DNA of 40,511 nucleotides from Rhodospirillales bacterium (GTDB lineage Bacteria > Pseudomonadota > Gammaproteobacteria > Nevskiales > Nevskiaceae), in assembly GCA_903970615.1 (NCBI GenBank), contig CAJCJH010000104.1, forward strand, positions 1 to 40,511. Reading direction: 5' to 3'. Under the pieces are notes generated by a model that was not told the origin of the DNA, did not search any database, and saw only the letters and a program-made list of their open reading frames with translations. The translations under genes and the position numbers were made by a program. Below are positions 28,531 through 33,295 of the stretch, piece after piece. Positions within the stretch are counted from its first letter, which is position 1. Every line of letters begins with the position of its first letter.

Positions 28531-28561
28531 AACCAGCGTTCACGGCCGACGCAAATGCGAA

Positions 28562-28622
28562 ACAGCCGCCGGAATTTTAATCCTGCGGCTGTCGCTTGCT
28601 CGGGCTTTGAACGAGAAAGCCC
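28562..28622. terminator. Two hairpins between ilvA and the delta-60 gene
   Basis: Stem 1 pairs ACAGCCGC (28562-28569) with GCGGCTGT (28585-28592). Stem 2 pairs GGGCTTT (28602-28608) with AAAGCCC (28616-28622). They sit between two converging genes and probably end transcription from both sides; T-runs are short. Confidence 0.6.
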
Positions 28623-28632
28623 CCGTGAAATC

Positions 28633-30246
28633 TTAAAGTCGGCGCTGCTTGCGGCGCCACATCAGCAGCAGCGACAAGGCCGCCACACCTGCCGGATCGA
28701 GGCTGCCTGTCCCGCTGCCGCCAGAGCCGCCGCCGGTGGTTGAGCCGTTACTGGTTCCACCTGTTGTAGTGCTGGTGCCGCCGCCGCTGGTCGCGCTGCC
28801 GCCGGTTGTGCCACCTGAGCCGCCGGTGTCGCCGCCACTCGTTCCACCGCCGCTGCTGCCGCCAGTCGTTCCGCCCGTTGTCGAGCCACCGCTGGTGCTT
28901 CCGGTGGTGCTGCCGCTGCTGGAGCAAGTGGCGCTTCCCGCCGTGCTGCTGGGTGTGTAGCCGATGGCGCCGCTGCCGCCGAGTTCGGCCAGCAGTTCGG
29001 CATTGGAACTGGTGTCGCCGGCAAACACGATCTGGCCACTGGCGTTGCTGGTGTAACGATTCGGTTGAAAGCCACCCGGAAAACTGATGGTGCCGGGCTG
29101 CGTGGTCGGGCTGCTGGTATCGGGCACGGCGCCAGTGATTGGGAACTGCACGAAATCGCCCGTATAAGTGCCGTTATTTGCAGTGCCGAATAGCAGATAA
29201 AGATTGTCGGCTGCGCCGCCGCTTTGGGTGATTCTGCCGATCAAGGCTGTGCTGTAGCTGCTGCCGTCGTAACTGGGGTCCACCAGCTCGCCGGTGCCAT
29301 TGAAATTGTTATCCAGGGCGCCGCTGCAACGGTCCAGAGCCACCGCCATTGCAACCTGACCGTTCTCATTGCCGCTGGGATAAGCGTCGCCAGCGATGAT
29401 GATGTCGGCAAAGCTGGACTGATTGCCATTGCCGGCGAAATTGAATGCCTCCGGAATCAGCGAGGTGCCGCCGCTGCTGACGGTAATCTCGGTGATGCCG
29501 TCAGAGCCGAAGCTGGTTTTCATACTGCCGTCGCCGCCGATCTTGGCTACCAGCAGCAGACCGGAGCTCGCACTACAGTTTCCGGTGCAGGTCTGTGGAT
29601 AGGCGTCATCGTCGCCGAACGCATAAATTTCGCCGTTGTTGCCGGCGCCGTCGTTGCTTACTGAGCACGATTTGAATTCGGGATTACTATTACCGCCGGC
29701 TGGGGTCACGGTGACTACACCAGAATTGCCGAAGCTGGTGTCTGCCGCGGCCGTGCCGGAACCCGCCGCAGGCGGCAGCAGGCGCTCCACCACGGCGGTA
29801 TTGCTGCCGTTGTTGGCATTGCCGACCACCACCAGATTGCTGGTTCCCGGATCGATGCAGAGACCGCTGAATTGATAACTGCTATTGCTGCTCTGCGGGA
29901 AGCTGATGACATAGCCGCTGGCGCCGAAGCTGGTATCGATGTTGCCGTTGCTCAAACGCCGTACGATGTAATACGGTCCCTGATAGCCGGATGTGCCGTC
30001 CGGACTGGCCTGCACCAGCGAGTAGATATTCTGGCTGGTGTCACTTTCGCTGATGCTGACGCCGCGCGCATAGCTCTGGCCGCTGCTGGTGGCGCCGGCA
30101 AACGGCTGTGACAGGCCATCGATGCCAAAGCTGTTGACGTCACTGAAGCTAAAGGTCGCGGCCCAAGCGGCCAGCGCGGTGCAAAGGCCGAGAGCAGTGA
30201 TCGCGGTGGCGATCGGATAACTACGGAAGAAACGCTGGCTTCGCAT
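28633..30246 (-). CDS. Secreted delta-60 repeat protein with GlyGly-CTERM-like tail
   Basis: A 537-aa exported protein. The signal peptide runs MRSQRFFRSYPIATAI onward to about AAWA. The body contains delta-60-like repeats of the form DTSFGxSGxV (DTSFGASGYVI, DTSFGNSGVVTV, KTSFGSDGITEI, DNNFNGTGELVD), with intervening predicted beta strands. A stalk of about 75 residues is almost pure Gly/Ser/Thr, followed by SLDPAGVAALSLLLMWRRKQRRL in pieces: a short Pro-containing hydrophobic helix and basic end as in GlyGly-CTERM proteins, which are processed by rhombosortase and exported by type II secretion. ATG 30246 has GGGGAG upstream. It is divergent from the wHTH-kinase gene. Confidence 0.8.
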   Translation of the reverse strand: MRSQRFFRSYPIATAITALGLCTALAAWAATFSFSDVNSFGIDGLSQPFAGATSSGQSYARGVSISESDTSQNIYSLVQASPDGTSGYQGPYYIVRRLSNGNIDTSFGASGYVISFPQSSNSSYQFSGLCIDPGTSNLVVVGNANNGSNTAVVERLLPPAAGSGTAAADTSFGNSGVVTVTPAGGNSNPEFKSCSVSNDGAGNNGEIYAFGDDDAYPQTCTGNCSASSGLLLVAKIGGDGSMKTSFGSDGITEITVSSGGTSLIPEAFNFAGNGNQSSFADIIIAGDAYPSGNENGQVAMAVALDRCSGALDNNFNGTGELVDPSYDGSSYSTALIGRITQSGGAADNLYLLFGTANNGTYTGDFVQFPITGAVPDTSSPTTQPGTISFPGGFQPNRYTSNASGQIVFAGDTSSNAELLAELGGSGAIGYTPSSTAGSATCSSSGSTTGSTSGGSTTGGTTGGSSGGGTSGGDTGGSGGTTGGSATSGGGTSTTTGGTSNGSTTGGGSGGSGTGSLDPAGVAALSLLLMWRRKQRRL

Positions 30247-30430
30247 AAAGACTCCCCTCATTCGGCGCTGTGGAAAAACAAAGTCCCGCCACCCTGAACC
30301 ATCCCCGGCGGCTGCATCCCGGTTGGCGACCCGCGTCGCTACGCGTGTTAAGTGACCTTTACGAATCCGGGCGCTTACAGGCAGTTCAACGTGTGCAACA
30401 ATCTGCGGGCAACAATAAGCAGCCTTCAAC

Positions 30431-30486
30431 CGGAAGTTTTCACGGAACTCGCACGGAATTCGCACGGAATTCGCACGGAAGTTGCA
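30431..30486. promoter_or_regulatory. Tandem 11-bp iterons, probable operator
   Basis: CGGAA recurs at 30431, 30443, 30454, 30465 and 30476. The last four units are spaced exactly 11 bp and read CGGAACTCGCA, CGGAATTCGCA, CGGAATTCGCA, CGGAAGTTGCA. Spacing near one helical turn puts the sites on one face of the DNA, as in arrays bound by winged-helix regulators. They lie 53-108 bp before the wHTH-kinase start codon and about 190 bp before the divergent delta-60 gene. Confidence 0.65.
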
Positions 30487-30538
30487 GCCGCGCCAGCCCC
30501 GGTGCCGATAGGCAAAGCTGCGCGAGCAGGGGAGCGGT

Positions 30539-33259
30539 ATGACTGGATCAGCGGCGTTCATCTGGCGCTTCGGGCAGGCTGAATTTGACGAGGCCCGCTG
30601 GCAGCTTCGTGTCGGTGGAACGCCGCAGGAGCTGGAACCGCGTCCGCTGGAGGTGATGCAGTATCTGCTGCGGCATGCGGGCGAGGTGGTGTCGCGTGCC
30701 GAGCTGATGGAAGCGGTCTATGGCCATCAGCATATCGGTGACGGTGCGCTGGCCAATGCCATCGGCAAACTGCGCAAAGTGCTGGACGACGATGGCCAGA
30801 AGATTATCGCCACCGTGCACCGCGTCGGCTATCGCTTCATCGCACCGGTTACGCGCGTAAATATCGCCGACATCGAGCGACCGCCGCTGTCCTTGAAAGC
30901 CGGCGATGCGGTTCACAAACGCGAGCACTGGAAGTTGCTGCGGCCGCTCGGTAGCGGGCGTGAGACCGAAGTATGGCTGGCCGAACACGACAAGACCCGC
31001 GACCTGCGCGTATTCAAGTTCAGCCCTGACGGCGCGCGCCTTTCGGCGCTGAAACGCGAGGCCACCTTGTTCCGCGTCATCAAGGAGACGCTGGGCGAAC
31101 GCGAGGATTTTGTCCGCGTGCTCGACTGGAATTTCGACGAGATTCCATTCTTTCTCGAATGCGAATACGGCGGTCAGAATCTGATCGAGTGGGCGCAGCA
31201 CATCGGCGGCATTAATTTCCTGCCGCGGCAGCAGCGCATCGAGCTGGCTGCACAGATTGCCAAGGCTGTAGCCGCGGCGCACTCCGCCGGTGTACTGCAC
31301 AAGGACCTGAAGCCCGCCAACGTACTGATGTTCCAGAGCGCGGCAGGTCTGTGGCGCCCGCGCCTGACCGATTTCGGCAGCGGCCGTCTGCTCGAACCGG
31401 AACGTCTCGCCTCACTCGGTATTACCCAGCTGGGTTTCACCCAGACGCAGGCGTTGACAAGCGATTCGCGCACCGGTACGCCGCTATATCTGGCGCCGGA
31501 AGTCATCAATGGCCAAGCGCCGACCGCGCTGGCCGATATCTACGCGCTGGGCGTGATCTTGTATCAGCTTGCGGTGGGCGACCTGCGCCGGCTGCTGGCG
31601 CCGGGTTGGGAGCAGGATGTCGATGACGAGATGCTGCGCCAAGATATTGCCGCCGCTGCCGCTGGCGATCCGTCAAAGCGGCTGACTTCCGCAGCGGAAC
31701 TGAGCAGCCGTTTGCAGAATCTCGATGCGCGCATGGAAGCGCGCGCGCGGGCACGCGCGGCTGCGGAACGCGCCGCGCAATTGCAAGGCCGGCTGGATCG
31801 CGCAAGAACCCGCCGGCCGTGGCTGATCGCGGCGGTTACGGCTCTGATTGCGGGCTTGGCCGCCTCGCTATGGTTTTATCGAACCGCTGTTCGCGCCCGC
31901 GATGAGGCGCGCGATCAGGCCGATATTGCCAACGCGGTGGTTACTTTTTTCAATCAGGACGTTCTTTCCGCGGGGTCGCCATTCACGGTTAGCGACAGTA
32001 ACGGCAAACCCTTGACGGCGCGTGAAACGGTGGATCGCGCGTTGGCCAATCTCGGCAATCGTTTCGCCGCGCGGCCAGCGGTGGAAGCGGCGATACGCGC
32101 CGCCGTCGGCCAGGTTTATGTCGAAGATGGCGACTACGACGCGGCTGAGGCGCAGATTCAGCATGCCGTTGATCTGTATCGCGCGATGCCGGACGCAGAG
32201 GGTGCAGCAGCGTTGCAAGCGGAATACGGACTGGTTTTTGCGCTGACGGTTCAGCAGAAATTCGATCGCGCGCAAGCCCTGCTGAATCATGCGAACGAAG
32301 TGTTTGCGCGGCTGCCGGATGTCGATGCGAAACTGGCGTTGCGACACGATGGAATCAACGGCAATTACTATTTCGCATTGCAGCAATACGATCGCGCACT
32401 TCCTTTCAATCAGAAAGCACTTGTCGATATTCTGGCGGCAGATCCCACGGACATCAGCAAGCTCGTCATCCGGCAGACCAGTCTGGCGCTGAGCTACGCA
32501 CACCTTAATCAGTTTGACGCGGCGATGCCCTTGTTTCGCAATGCCCTTGATGAGGTTGGTGCGGTGGAAAAAAATGGCGGAACCCTGACCGGCACGATAC
32601 AAGGCCGTTACGGAATCGGCTTATTCCTTCAGCGGAAGTACATCGATGCCGAGCGCGTGCTCGGCCAAGCTTATTCAGGCCTGAGTACCGCGATCGGCCC
32701 GAGCGACGGACTCACCGCGGAGTCGCTGACCTACCTCGGCTGGATACAACTTAAACAAGGACATGCTGCGCAAGCGGAAGCGATGTTGCGCAATGCCTAT
32801 GCGGTCGAGCTGAATAATGCCGGGCCGACTCATCCAATGACATTGCGGGCGCACGCCTGTCTGGGCATGGCGGAGTTTGCCAACACCCAACCGGTGGCCG
32901 GTTTGCAGGATCTCGTAGCGGCCGTGCGCGGCTACGATCAGGTGCTGGGAGTTGCTGCTCCGGAAGGCCAGTTATTCAAATTCTGGTTGGCTTTCGATGA
33001 TCTCGCTACCGGCGGGCATCTGGCCGAGGCGGAGCAAATCGTCGGTACCATCGATGCGGAAAAAATAAGGCTGGAAGCACCGGCAGAAGACTGGCCTGCG
33101 CAACTGAAACTGCTGCGTGCGGAATTGGCTTGGACAAAAGGCCAGAGGGACTTGGCAAACCAAAGCGTGCGCGAAGCACTCGACAGCCTGCGCAAGACCG
33201 GTAACCCTGATCCGGCTGAACTTGCTGCGGCGGAAAAAATGCTGGCGTCAGTGCCATAG
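30539..33259 (+). CDS. Winged-helix / Ser-Thr protein kinase / TPR fusion
   Basis: A 906-aa fusion. Residues about 8-105 form an OmpR/ToxR-type winged helix (LEPRPLEVMQYLLRHAGEVV, KLRKVLDDDG, then IATVHRVGYRF). Residues about 120-400 form a Hanks-type kinase: glycine loop LGSGRETEVWLA, Lys in RVFKF, catalytic loop LHKDLKPANVL (HKD instead of HRD), metal motif TDFGSGR, activation segment TGTPLYLAPEV. A basic linker and one TM helix (WLIAAVTALIAGLAASLWF, about 424-442) follow, then about 460 residues of helical TPR-like repeats, presumably periplasmic. A membrane-tethered DNA-binding domain is like CadC/ToxR. The ribosome site is GGGGAG before ATG 30539. Confidence 0.88.
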   Translation: MTGSAAFIWRFGQAEFDEARWQLRVGGTPQELEPRPLEVMQYLLRHAGEVVSRAELMEAVYGHQHIGDGALANAIGKLRKVLDDDGQKIIATVHRVGYRFIAPVTRVNIADIERPPLSLKAGDAVHKREHWKLLRPLGSGRETEVWLAEHDKTRDLRVFKFSPDGARLSALKREATLFRVIKETLGEREDFVRVLDWNFDEIPFFLECEYGGQNLIEWAQHIGGINFLPRQQRIELAAQIAKAVAAAHSAGVLHKDLKPANVLMFQSAAGLWRPRLTDFGSGRLLEPERLASLGITQLGFTQTQALTSDSRTGTPLYLAPEVINGQAPTALADIYALGVILYQLAVGDLRRLLAPGWEQDVDDEMLRQDIAAAAAGDPSKRLTSAAELSSRLQNLDARMEARARARAAAERAAQLQGRLDRARTRRPWLIAAVTALIAGLAASLWFYRTAVRARDEARDQADIANAVVTFFNQDVLSAGSPFTVSDSNGKPLTARETVDRALANLGNRFAARPAVEAAIRAAVGQVYVEDGDYDAAEAQIQHAVDLYRAMPDAEGAAALQAEYGLVFALTVQQKFDRAQALLNHANEVFARLPDVDAKLALRHDGINGNYYFALQQYDRALPFNQKALVDILAADPTDISKLVIRQTSLALSYAHLNQFDAAMPLFRNALDEVGAVEKNGGTLTGTIQGRYGIGLFLQRKYIDAERVLGQAYSGLSTAIGPSDGLTAESLTYLGWIQLKQGHAAQAEAMLRNAYAVELNNAGPTHPMTLRAHACLGMAEFANTQPVAGLQDLVAAVRGYDQVLGVAAPEGQLFKFWLAFDDLATGGHLAEAEQIVGTIDAEKIRLEAPAEDWPAQLKLLRAELAWTKGQRDLANQSVREALDSLRKTGNPDPAELAAAEKMLASVP

Positions 33260-33268
33260 CTGACTGAT

Positions 33269-33288
33269 GCTGCACCGGTCGGTGCAGC
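33269..33288. terminator. Hairpin between converging kinase and EVE genes
   Basis: A perfect 8-bp stem, GCTGCACC with GGTGCAGC, and a 4-nt loop in the 36-bp gap between two converging genes. There is no T-run; a two-way terminator is a reasonable guess. Confidence 0.5.
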
Positions 33289-33295
33289 GAGCCGT

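Follow-up and report, generated by a model that had tools for sequence, protein, structure and literature searches.

A transmembrane regulator incorporating a Ser/Thr kinase, and its predicted operator of tandem 11-bp repeats, in the Nevskiaceae

Introduction

What would a bacterial protein regulate that carries a DNA-binding domain, a Ser/Thr kinase and tetratricopeptide repeats (TPR) in one chain, and at which DNA site? This question is raised by a gene on contig CAJCJH010000104.1 (assembly GCA_903970615.1) of a Rhodospirillales bacterium, placed within the Nevskiaceae by its GTDB lineage. The whole stretch of 40,511 nucleotides was analysed and is referred to here as the window; it is contig 104 of a genome of 3.17 Mb that is 98% complete. 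A preliminary description of the window had presented the gene product as a one-component regulator combined with a eukaryote-like kinase, with the product of a divergent gene, a delta-60 repeat protein, as its possible output or ligand. The product, hereafter the receptor, is best described as a transmembrane regulator that incorporates a Ser/Thr kinase. Of the new results of the present analysis, the best supported is its predicted private operator, an array of 11-bp repeats that covaries with the recognition helix and is tied to divergent neighbours. With this operator, what looked like an odd domain fusion becomes a circuit that can be tested.

A tandem 11-bp array as predicted operator

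The array (Table 1) is situated in the gap between the start of the divergent gene (30246) and that of the receptor gene (30539) and ends 54 bp before the receptor start codon; in the register of the family model it starts at 30439. Its pattern was matched three times within the window, with 0.12 matches expected. When up to two mismatches were allowed across the 3.17-Mb genome, mismatch-free matches were found only at the operator, with three other places showing two mismatches.

Homologues of the receptor were searched for in 100 genomes of relatives. Matches at an expectation (E) value of ≤1e-20 were found in 49 of these, with at least nine in the richest genome (nine candidates scored), paralogue counts per genome being lower bounds. 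The 128 matches at this threshold gave 121 genes with both a winged helix-turn-helix (wHTH) and a kinase domain, while seven were dropped for a missing end (L123, L139) or for having no wHTH (L124-L128). This first gene set was picked by hand and covers most, though not all, of the matches listed. Removal of the 14 genes already in this set from 46 named full-length genes left a further 32, and the 153 upstream regions were reduced to 138 by removal of near-duplicates, with 31 of the 32 present in this non-redundant set.

A scan of periods from 6 to 30 upstream of the 121 genes showed that only period 11 stands out, with 36 genes at p ≤ 0.02 against 2.4 expected, followed by period 22 with eight and then by counts of six. 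This was replicated on the 32 further named genes, among which period 11 was detected in seven (0.6 expected) and every other period in no more than two. For 330 upstream regions of other genes in the same loci, period 11 was recorded in 18 and period 12 in 16, with 6.6 expected. A three-unit model with tied columns was then applied (consensus CTGACGAAnTn, threshold at the 99% shuffle level), and 63/138 family upstream regions scored above threshold compared to 11/330 control regions. Cross-validation of this model gave 18/31 and 30/107, with 8/330 and 16/330 for the controls. The counts of 36/121 and 63/138, and that of 44/70 given below, contain related sequences and do not represent independent events. 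These statistics indicate that the wHTH of the receptor reads the adjacent repeated site, binding being predicted from sequence.

Covariation of the recognition helix and wing with the operator

Proteins of the OmpR/PhoB family have direct repeats as binding sites, and the portion of the literature cited here describes for PhoP a 7-bp motif with a 4-bp spacer, the recognition helix lying in the major groove and a wing arginine in the minor groove (PMC4832192). The receptor resembles PhoP and PhoB in the fold class of its wHTH and in its tandem direct repeats, the 7 + 4 bp of PhoP equalling the 11-bp period; unlike them it has a Ser/Thr kinase in the chain and is predicted to be membrane-bound, and no receiver domain was found in it. 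Recognition of the OmpR/PhoB type, with tandem direct repeats, an 11-bp period and reading by both helix and wing, was recovered in silico.

In the window protein the recognition helix spans about residues 66-82 and the wing about residues 93-97, including Arg95. Among the 63 genes with a site, an arginine at wing position 95 was accompanied by C (18), A (7) or G (5) at base 3 of the unit, a glycine by G (28), C (3) or T (1) and the single lysine by C. A partial Mantel test, in which relatedness is handled by distance and not by a tree, showed that operator distance can be predicted from the distance between recognition helices plus wings once the kinase and the remaining wHTH are removed (partial r = 0.34, p = 0.002). 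The corresponding values were 0.03 (p = 0.28) for the remaining wHTH and -0.06 (p = 0.79) for the kinase given the helix. Distant lineages that share a helix type were also found to share a site type, for example L158 and L194. At the level of these alignments the predicted operator and the recognition helix and wing vary together more than overall relatedness accounts for.

Divergent neighbours and a promoter-like element

Neighbouring genes were called with a codon-usage heuristic and no published gene finder. Arrays were present for 44/70 family genes with a divergent neighbour, 7/46 with a co-directional neighbour and 2/5 with none called (Fisher p = 3.8e-7), and the period test alone gave 33/67 for divergent against 1/46 for co-directional neighbours.

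In upstream sequences aligned by the array, columns -27 (A in 36/63) and -23 (T in 32/63) were conserved. Read towards the divergent gene, they form part of a TAnnnT-like hexamer (two or three of T, A and T) in 30/63, with all three letters in seven, while the thirteen other offsets from -34 to -21 gave 0-11 of 63. A -35 match at 17-bp spacing scored on average 2.19/6 in this direction against a background of 1.39, and 1.43/6 against 1.37 when read towards the receptor. It derives from a GTC that abuts the first unit in 28/63 (background 1.9% per position); the element counts come from a register unselected for GTC, an earlier register having been chosen partly with it. For a -10 facing the receptor on the downstream side of the array, counts stayed at or below 12/63 at every offset between 30 and 60. 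The view that the element faces the divergent gene only was considered and rejected, with forward peaks existing too and the same two columns being readable the other way in 29/63. A promoter element at fixed spacing is likely on these alignments, with the divergent direction favoured.

For a promoter in the divergent direction, the array lies where an activator of the OmpR/PhoB type would sit. Activation of the divergent gene is considered most likely, given the association of arrays with divergent neighbours and the adjoining promoter-like element, which fits that direction best. The suggestion that the divergent gene is the output of the receptor is supported in part, in silico, by the operator in the shared gap, its recurrence in the family, the divergent link and the covariation; as to promoter direction, the element of fixed spacing fits the divergent promoter better than that of the receptor, not decisively.

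A second short direct repeat, GCAACAAT with a spacing of 14 bp, was observed at 30395-30422, overlapping the -10-like hexamer of the divergent gene.

Architecture and topology of the receptor

The presence of DNA-binding, kinase and TPR domains in one chain, as initially described, was borne out by Pfam and by an AlphaFold model (mean predicted local distance difference test score 90; predicted template modelling score 0.57). The order in the model is wHTH, kinase fold, a single long helix (395-479) passing through the transmembrane (TM) segment, and helical repeats, the relative placement of these domains being unsure because the template modelling score is only 0.57. A single strong hydrophobic segment, with a mean hydropathy of 2.02 over 19 residues, begins at residue 428; the window at residue 329 is weaker (mean 1.51) and lies inside the kinase domain. 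Among the TPR matches that of TPR_12 at residues 684-755 was the strongest (Pfam E 1.2e-12). The catalytic residues of the kinase are intact (Lys160, Glu174, HKD at 254-256, Asn261 and DFG at 278-280). A fold search of the PDB with the receptor returned only kinases in its best 50 rows and added nothing further. The wHTH-kinase-TM-TPR architecture is real, conserved and intact.

The HKD in place of HRD in the catalytic loop had previously been singled out, and it is indeed present, without being a peculiarity of the window protein. Among the 121 family members the lysine and the alpha-C glutamate are each conserved in 121, HKD in 113 (HRD in 6), the asparagine in 120 and DFG in 110 (DLG in 9). 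HKD as the mark of an odd or dead kinase was consequently rejected, being the family norm (113/121).

The closest characterised layout is that of PknS of Xanthomonas citri (XAC4127), which is paired with EcfK. The PknS structure 9eed was matched by the receptor at E 2.3e-9, and both proteins have a kinase, a TM segment and C-terminal TPRs, with the kinase cytoplasmic and the TPRs periplasmic in PknS according to the parts of the reports drawn on here (PMC13147305, PMC8999054). Activity of the window kinase would be expected from its intact catalytic residues and the PknS precedent. A TM segment at the corresponding place was predicted in 108/121 family members (starts 411-457), and summed over these 108, lysines and arginines around it number 548 on the N-terminal side and 318 after it, an excess on the N-terminal side. 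The TPR part is probably periplasmic on the basis of the model and of PknS, and the bias in charged residues fits this.

Table 1. Positions within the window of the receptor gene, its domains and the associated features.
Feature	Position	Strand	Evidence
Cassette of delta-60 gene and receptor gene between convergent ilvA and EVE-domain genes	28531..33295	.	Comparison with congeners
Divergent gene, 537-aa protein: weak delta-60 match, signal-peptide-like N-terminus, Gly/Ser-rich, hydrophobic and Arg-rich C-terminus	28633..30246	-	Profile match; translation
-10-like hexamer TATTGT, read towards the divergent gene	30412..30417	-	Fixed offset (-27) from array start in the family; direction favoured
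Predicted operator, four head-to-tail 11-bp units: CACGGAACTCG, CACGGAATTCG twice, CACGGAAGTTG	30441..30484	+	Repeat statistics, family model
wHTH - Ser/Thr kinase - TM - TPR receptor gene	30539..33259	+	One open reading frame, 906 aa; Pfam, AlphaFold model
OmpR-type winged-helix DNA-binding domain, Trans_reg_C (PF00486), residues 28-100	30620..30838	+	Pfam E 4.8e-16; model
Hanks-type kinase domain, Pkinase, residues 132-349	30932..31585	+	Pfam E 1.3e-24
Predicted transmembrane helix, residues 428-446	31820..31876	+	Hydropathy; inside long helix 395-479 of the model
TPR superhelix, residues 494-903, predicted periplasmic	32018..33247	+	Pfam, model; topology inferred

Spread of the family and comparison with known systems

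A search for the spread of this architecture, as had been proposed, was carried out and yielded the 121 genes from relatives together with named records in further lineages. Wider sampling at E ≤ 1e-40 gave a match in 4/369 genomes of the class and in 4/299 genomes of the phylum, the window's own genome being counted in both, and the family is therefore patchy outside its home group. The scan of named genomes, from which 80 loci (some without a wHTH) were kept among the matches listed, identified wHTH-kinases in Nevskia, Solimonas, Hydrocarboniphaga, Pseudoxanthomonas, Dokdonella, Rhodanobacter, Rubrivivax, Janthinobacterium, Sphingomonas, Sphingopyxis, Novosphingobium, Bowmanella, Thalassolituus, Amphiplicatus, Granulicella and other Acidobacteria, likewise among the matches listed. 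These records extend the family from the Gammaproteobacteria to the Beta- and Alphaproteobacteria and the Acidobacteria.

Regulators of the ToxR/CadC type are defined by a wHTH joined to a TM segment without an enzyme domain. Like them (PMC10269533, in the part cited), the receptor has an N-terminal OmpR-type wHTH, a single predicted TM segment and a C-terminal part beyond it; unlike them, it has a full kinase domain between wHTH and TM, and because of this it is a variant, not a member, of that type. The hybrid domains named in that part of the survey of transmembrane regulators are two-component ones, and in its main text the terms 'tpr' and 'tetratricopeptide' occur 0 times (PMC10269533). 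None of the titles and abstracts listed in searches of open-licence PMC papers describes the present architecture, which is no proof of absence.

In the part of the PknS report cited here, PknS is described as phosphorylating the sigma factor EcfK; the authors propose a role for the periplasmic part in modulating PknS phosphorylation (PMC13147305). PknS, paired with EcfK, and PknT, paired with EcfP of the ECF43 type, both act on a transcription factor (PMC13147305, PMC8999054, in the parts cited). Unlike PknS with its separate sigma factor target, the receptor has the DNA-binding module fused. The gene for a cognate extracytoplasmic function (ECF) sigma factor that accompanies kinases of the PknS/ECF43 type is missing beside the receptor, a Pfam search having detected no sigma factor among six neighbouring proteins of the window. 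As a positive control, two TPR kinases were observed with an ECF sigma gene (PF07638) directly upstream, one from the window's order (L124:5941-9258) and one from its genus (L126:4042-6947); both fall outside the clan described below in a quick tree.

Kinases of the same clan that have no wHTH were found to bear an N-terminal class III cyclase-like domain (Acidobacteriota, Planctomycetota, Verrucomicrobia and others). The eight that were scanned are 43-50% identical in the best segment and four of them have TPR matches; the cyclase domain PF00211 was listed for at least three of the eight (L199, L208 and L210; for L205 it was not among the best 25 of 49) and the others were recognised by motif. 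The quick tree, rooted at the midpoint, unites the wHTH and cyclase kinases in one clan against other kinases with a Shimodaira-Hasegawa-like approximate likelihood ratio support of 100, the cyclase group having 96. The occurrence of a cyclase-like domain in the place of the wHTH suggests a kinase that works for any output joined to it, and from these sequences it looks like an output-swapping chassis.

Most of the loci L198-L212 have the class III cyclase-like domain at the N-terminus, and their C-termini are TPR, WD40 or FGE-sulfatase. Sulfidibacter corallicola has two such kinases side by side (L202:3471-5297 and L202:5227-9396). A record titled as a Klebsiella pneumoniae metagenome-assembled genome (L233) contains a Hanks kinase 29% identical to the receptor, possibly a mis-binned contig, which is a guess.

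Proposed mechanism and alternative explanations

The reading that we consider somewhat more probable than not is that of a one-component receptor with a Ser/Thr kinase, the wHTH of which reads the array and controls, most likely by activation, a dedicated divergent gene whose product is exported. An envelope signal would be sensed by the TPR superhelix, which is probably periplasmic, and by analogy this signal would shift the dimer state or conformation across the single TM segment and the long juxtamembrane helix. This change would turn on the cytoplasmic kinase, as the intact catalytic residues and PknS suggest, and the kinase would modify the chain to which it belongs, most likely in cis or between the partners of a dimer, by analogy with PknS. 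Such modification may set the DNA affinity of the attached winged helix or its contact with RNA polymerase. The winged helix is predicted, with the support of the sequence statistics, to read the tandem array between the two genes, and the bound receptor would most likely activate the gene for the exported protein, in the window the delta-60 protein at 28633-30246, and may also regulate its own gene.

Several results weigh against this reading. No array above threshold was found in 75/138 family upstream regions, and the model also matches reverse strands (18/138 family, 20/330 controls), because of which some single array calls are false. The loose count for the receptor-ward reading of the conserved columns (29/63, with all three letters in 3) is about that of the divergent reading (30/63), the GTC supplying the -35 match may belong to the operator, and a stricter -10 pattern applied to the aligned sites gave no peak where the looser TAnnnT count did. 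A scan of the intergenic gap of the window for a consensus sigma-70 promoter found none. Distances cluster on both sides, 14/44 arrays lying 62-77 bp from the divergent start codon and 16/44 lying 129-149 bp from that of the receptor. The Gly-rich loop of the kinase is degenerate in many of the 121 members, so that some may be weak kinases, and the dimer and cis-phosphorylation steps are drawn by analogy. A crude signal-peptide test separated the partners weakly (divergent 26/67, controls 203/688, co-directional 14/46).

It is unlikely, though worth weighing, that the winged helix mainly represses, with the signal relieving repression; its target would be the divergent gene or, with a promoter beyond the array, its own gene. 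The fixed A/T element is also readable as a receptor-facing -10, in which case the array would lie downstream of this -10, and the distance of 54 bp from array to start codon in the window also suits repression; against this, a receptor-ward -35 at the right spacing is lacking, the divergent reading scores above its background and arrays go with divergent neighbours. Still less expected is a winged helix that regulates the operator independently of the kinase, which would phosphorylate other proteins while the wHTH autoregulates and anchors the complex to the promoter. Pleiotropic targets of bacterial Ser/Thr kinases, as recorded in the cited part of PMC4601284, and the position of the operator upstream of the receptor's own gene favour this, but the N-terminal place is occupied by either a wHTH or a cyclase-like domain in kinases of this clan, as suits an output module attached to the kinase, and the fusion has been kept in distant lineages. 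Improbable in our estimation is the explanation that a different regulator of the OmpR family binds the arrays, or that they are a product of promoter composition, the receptor's wHTH having other targets. The source genome does contain other OmpR-type domains (nine Trans_reg_C matches including the receptor) and the 75 regions without an array would fit; however, the site sequence tracks the recognition helix and wing of the receptor itself more closely than relatedness explains, also in distant lineages such as L158 and L194, and arrays are rare in control upstream regions.

More tentatively, the receptor may exemplify a further design of bacterial transmembrane gene control. In this design the TPR part would be the periplasmic sensor, and the Ser/Thr kinase driven by it would regulate in cis an output domain fused to it. 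Outputs (winged helix or nucleotide cyclase) would be swappable, and the many paralogues per genome in Nevskia and its relatives would have private 11-bp-repeat operators, each matched to its helix and wired to one divergent exported protein as insulated pairs. If true, this would join one-component transmembrane regulators and Ser/Thr receptor kinases, designs usually held separate. It would also assign a defined promoter as output to a set of Hanks kinases in Proteobacteria, and would offer engineers a simple sensor chassis. The case is unusually testable, with many receptor genes adjoining their likely operator and target and with paralogues serving as natural swaps of helix and site.

The divergent gene and its counterparts

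The divergent gene had been described as encoding a surface or secreted delta-60 protein. Its N-terminus is signal-peptide-like, and the delta-60 match is weak and below the curated cut-off (TIGR02608, E 1e-6, 28.5 bits against 76.5). The tail of the protein (28636-28720) resembles GlyGly-CTERM sorting signals, a resemblance only, rhombosortase not having been searched for.

Of the 70 divergent neighbours in the family, the 67 within 700 bp and below 2,500 aa were scanned for domains, as were 63/65 downstream controls. The divergent neighbours contained Calx-beta (9), HYDIN-type Ig (6), GloVer repeats (6), choice-of-anchor D (6), S8 peptidase (5), OmpA (5), delta-60 (5), DUF5122 (4) and RND (3) domains; in the controls Calx-beta and S8 were each found twice, with none of the other neighbour families in the best 25 of 92. 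C-terminal sorting-like tails were identified in 5/68 compared with 7/529 controls. Exported repeat proteins recur as partners of the receptors, though the partners are diverse.

The ilvA/EVE slot

Genes for IlvA and the EVE-domain protein are each present in 17/18 genomes of the genus, on the same contig in 15. The distance between them is 33 bp in G006, the IlvA of which is 90% identical to that of the window, 22 bp in both G002 and G010, 167 bp in G017 and 4.8 kb in the window. No receptor match at E ≤ 1e-20 was found in G006. A comparison with plasmids gave no match at this threshold either. In L243-L247 the slot contains other open reading frames, with no tblastn match to the delta-60 or the receptor gene. 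The comparison indicates that these two genes were gained or lost at this slot as a pair, which supports their linkage. Across L243-L251 the slot is variable, being nearly empty in some members of the genus and holding large open reading frames in others (L243-L247), some of which resemble diguanylate cyclase/EAL proteins by eye.

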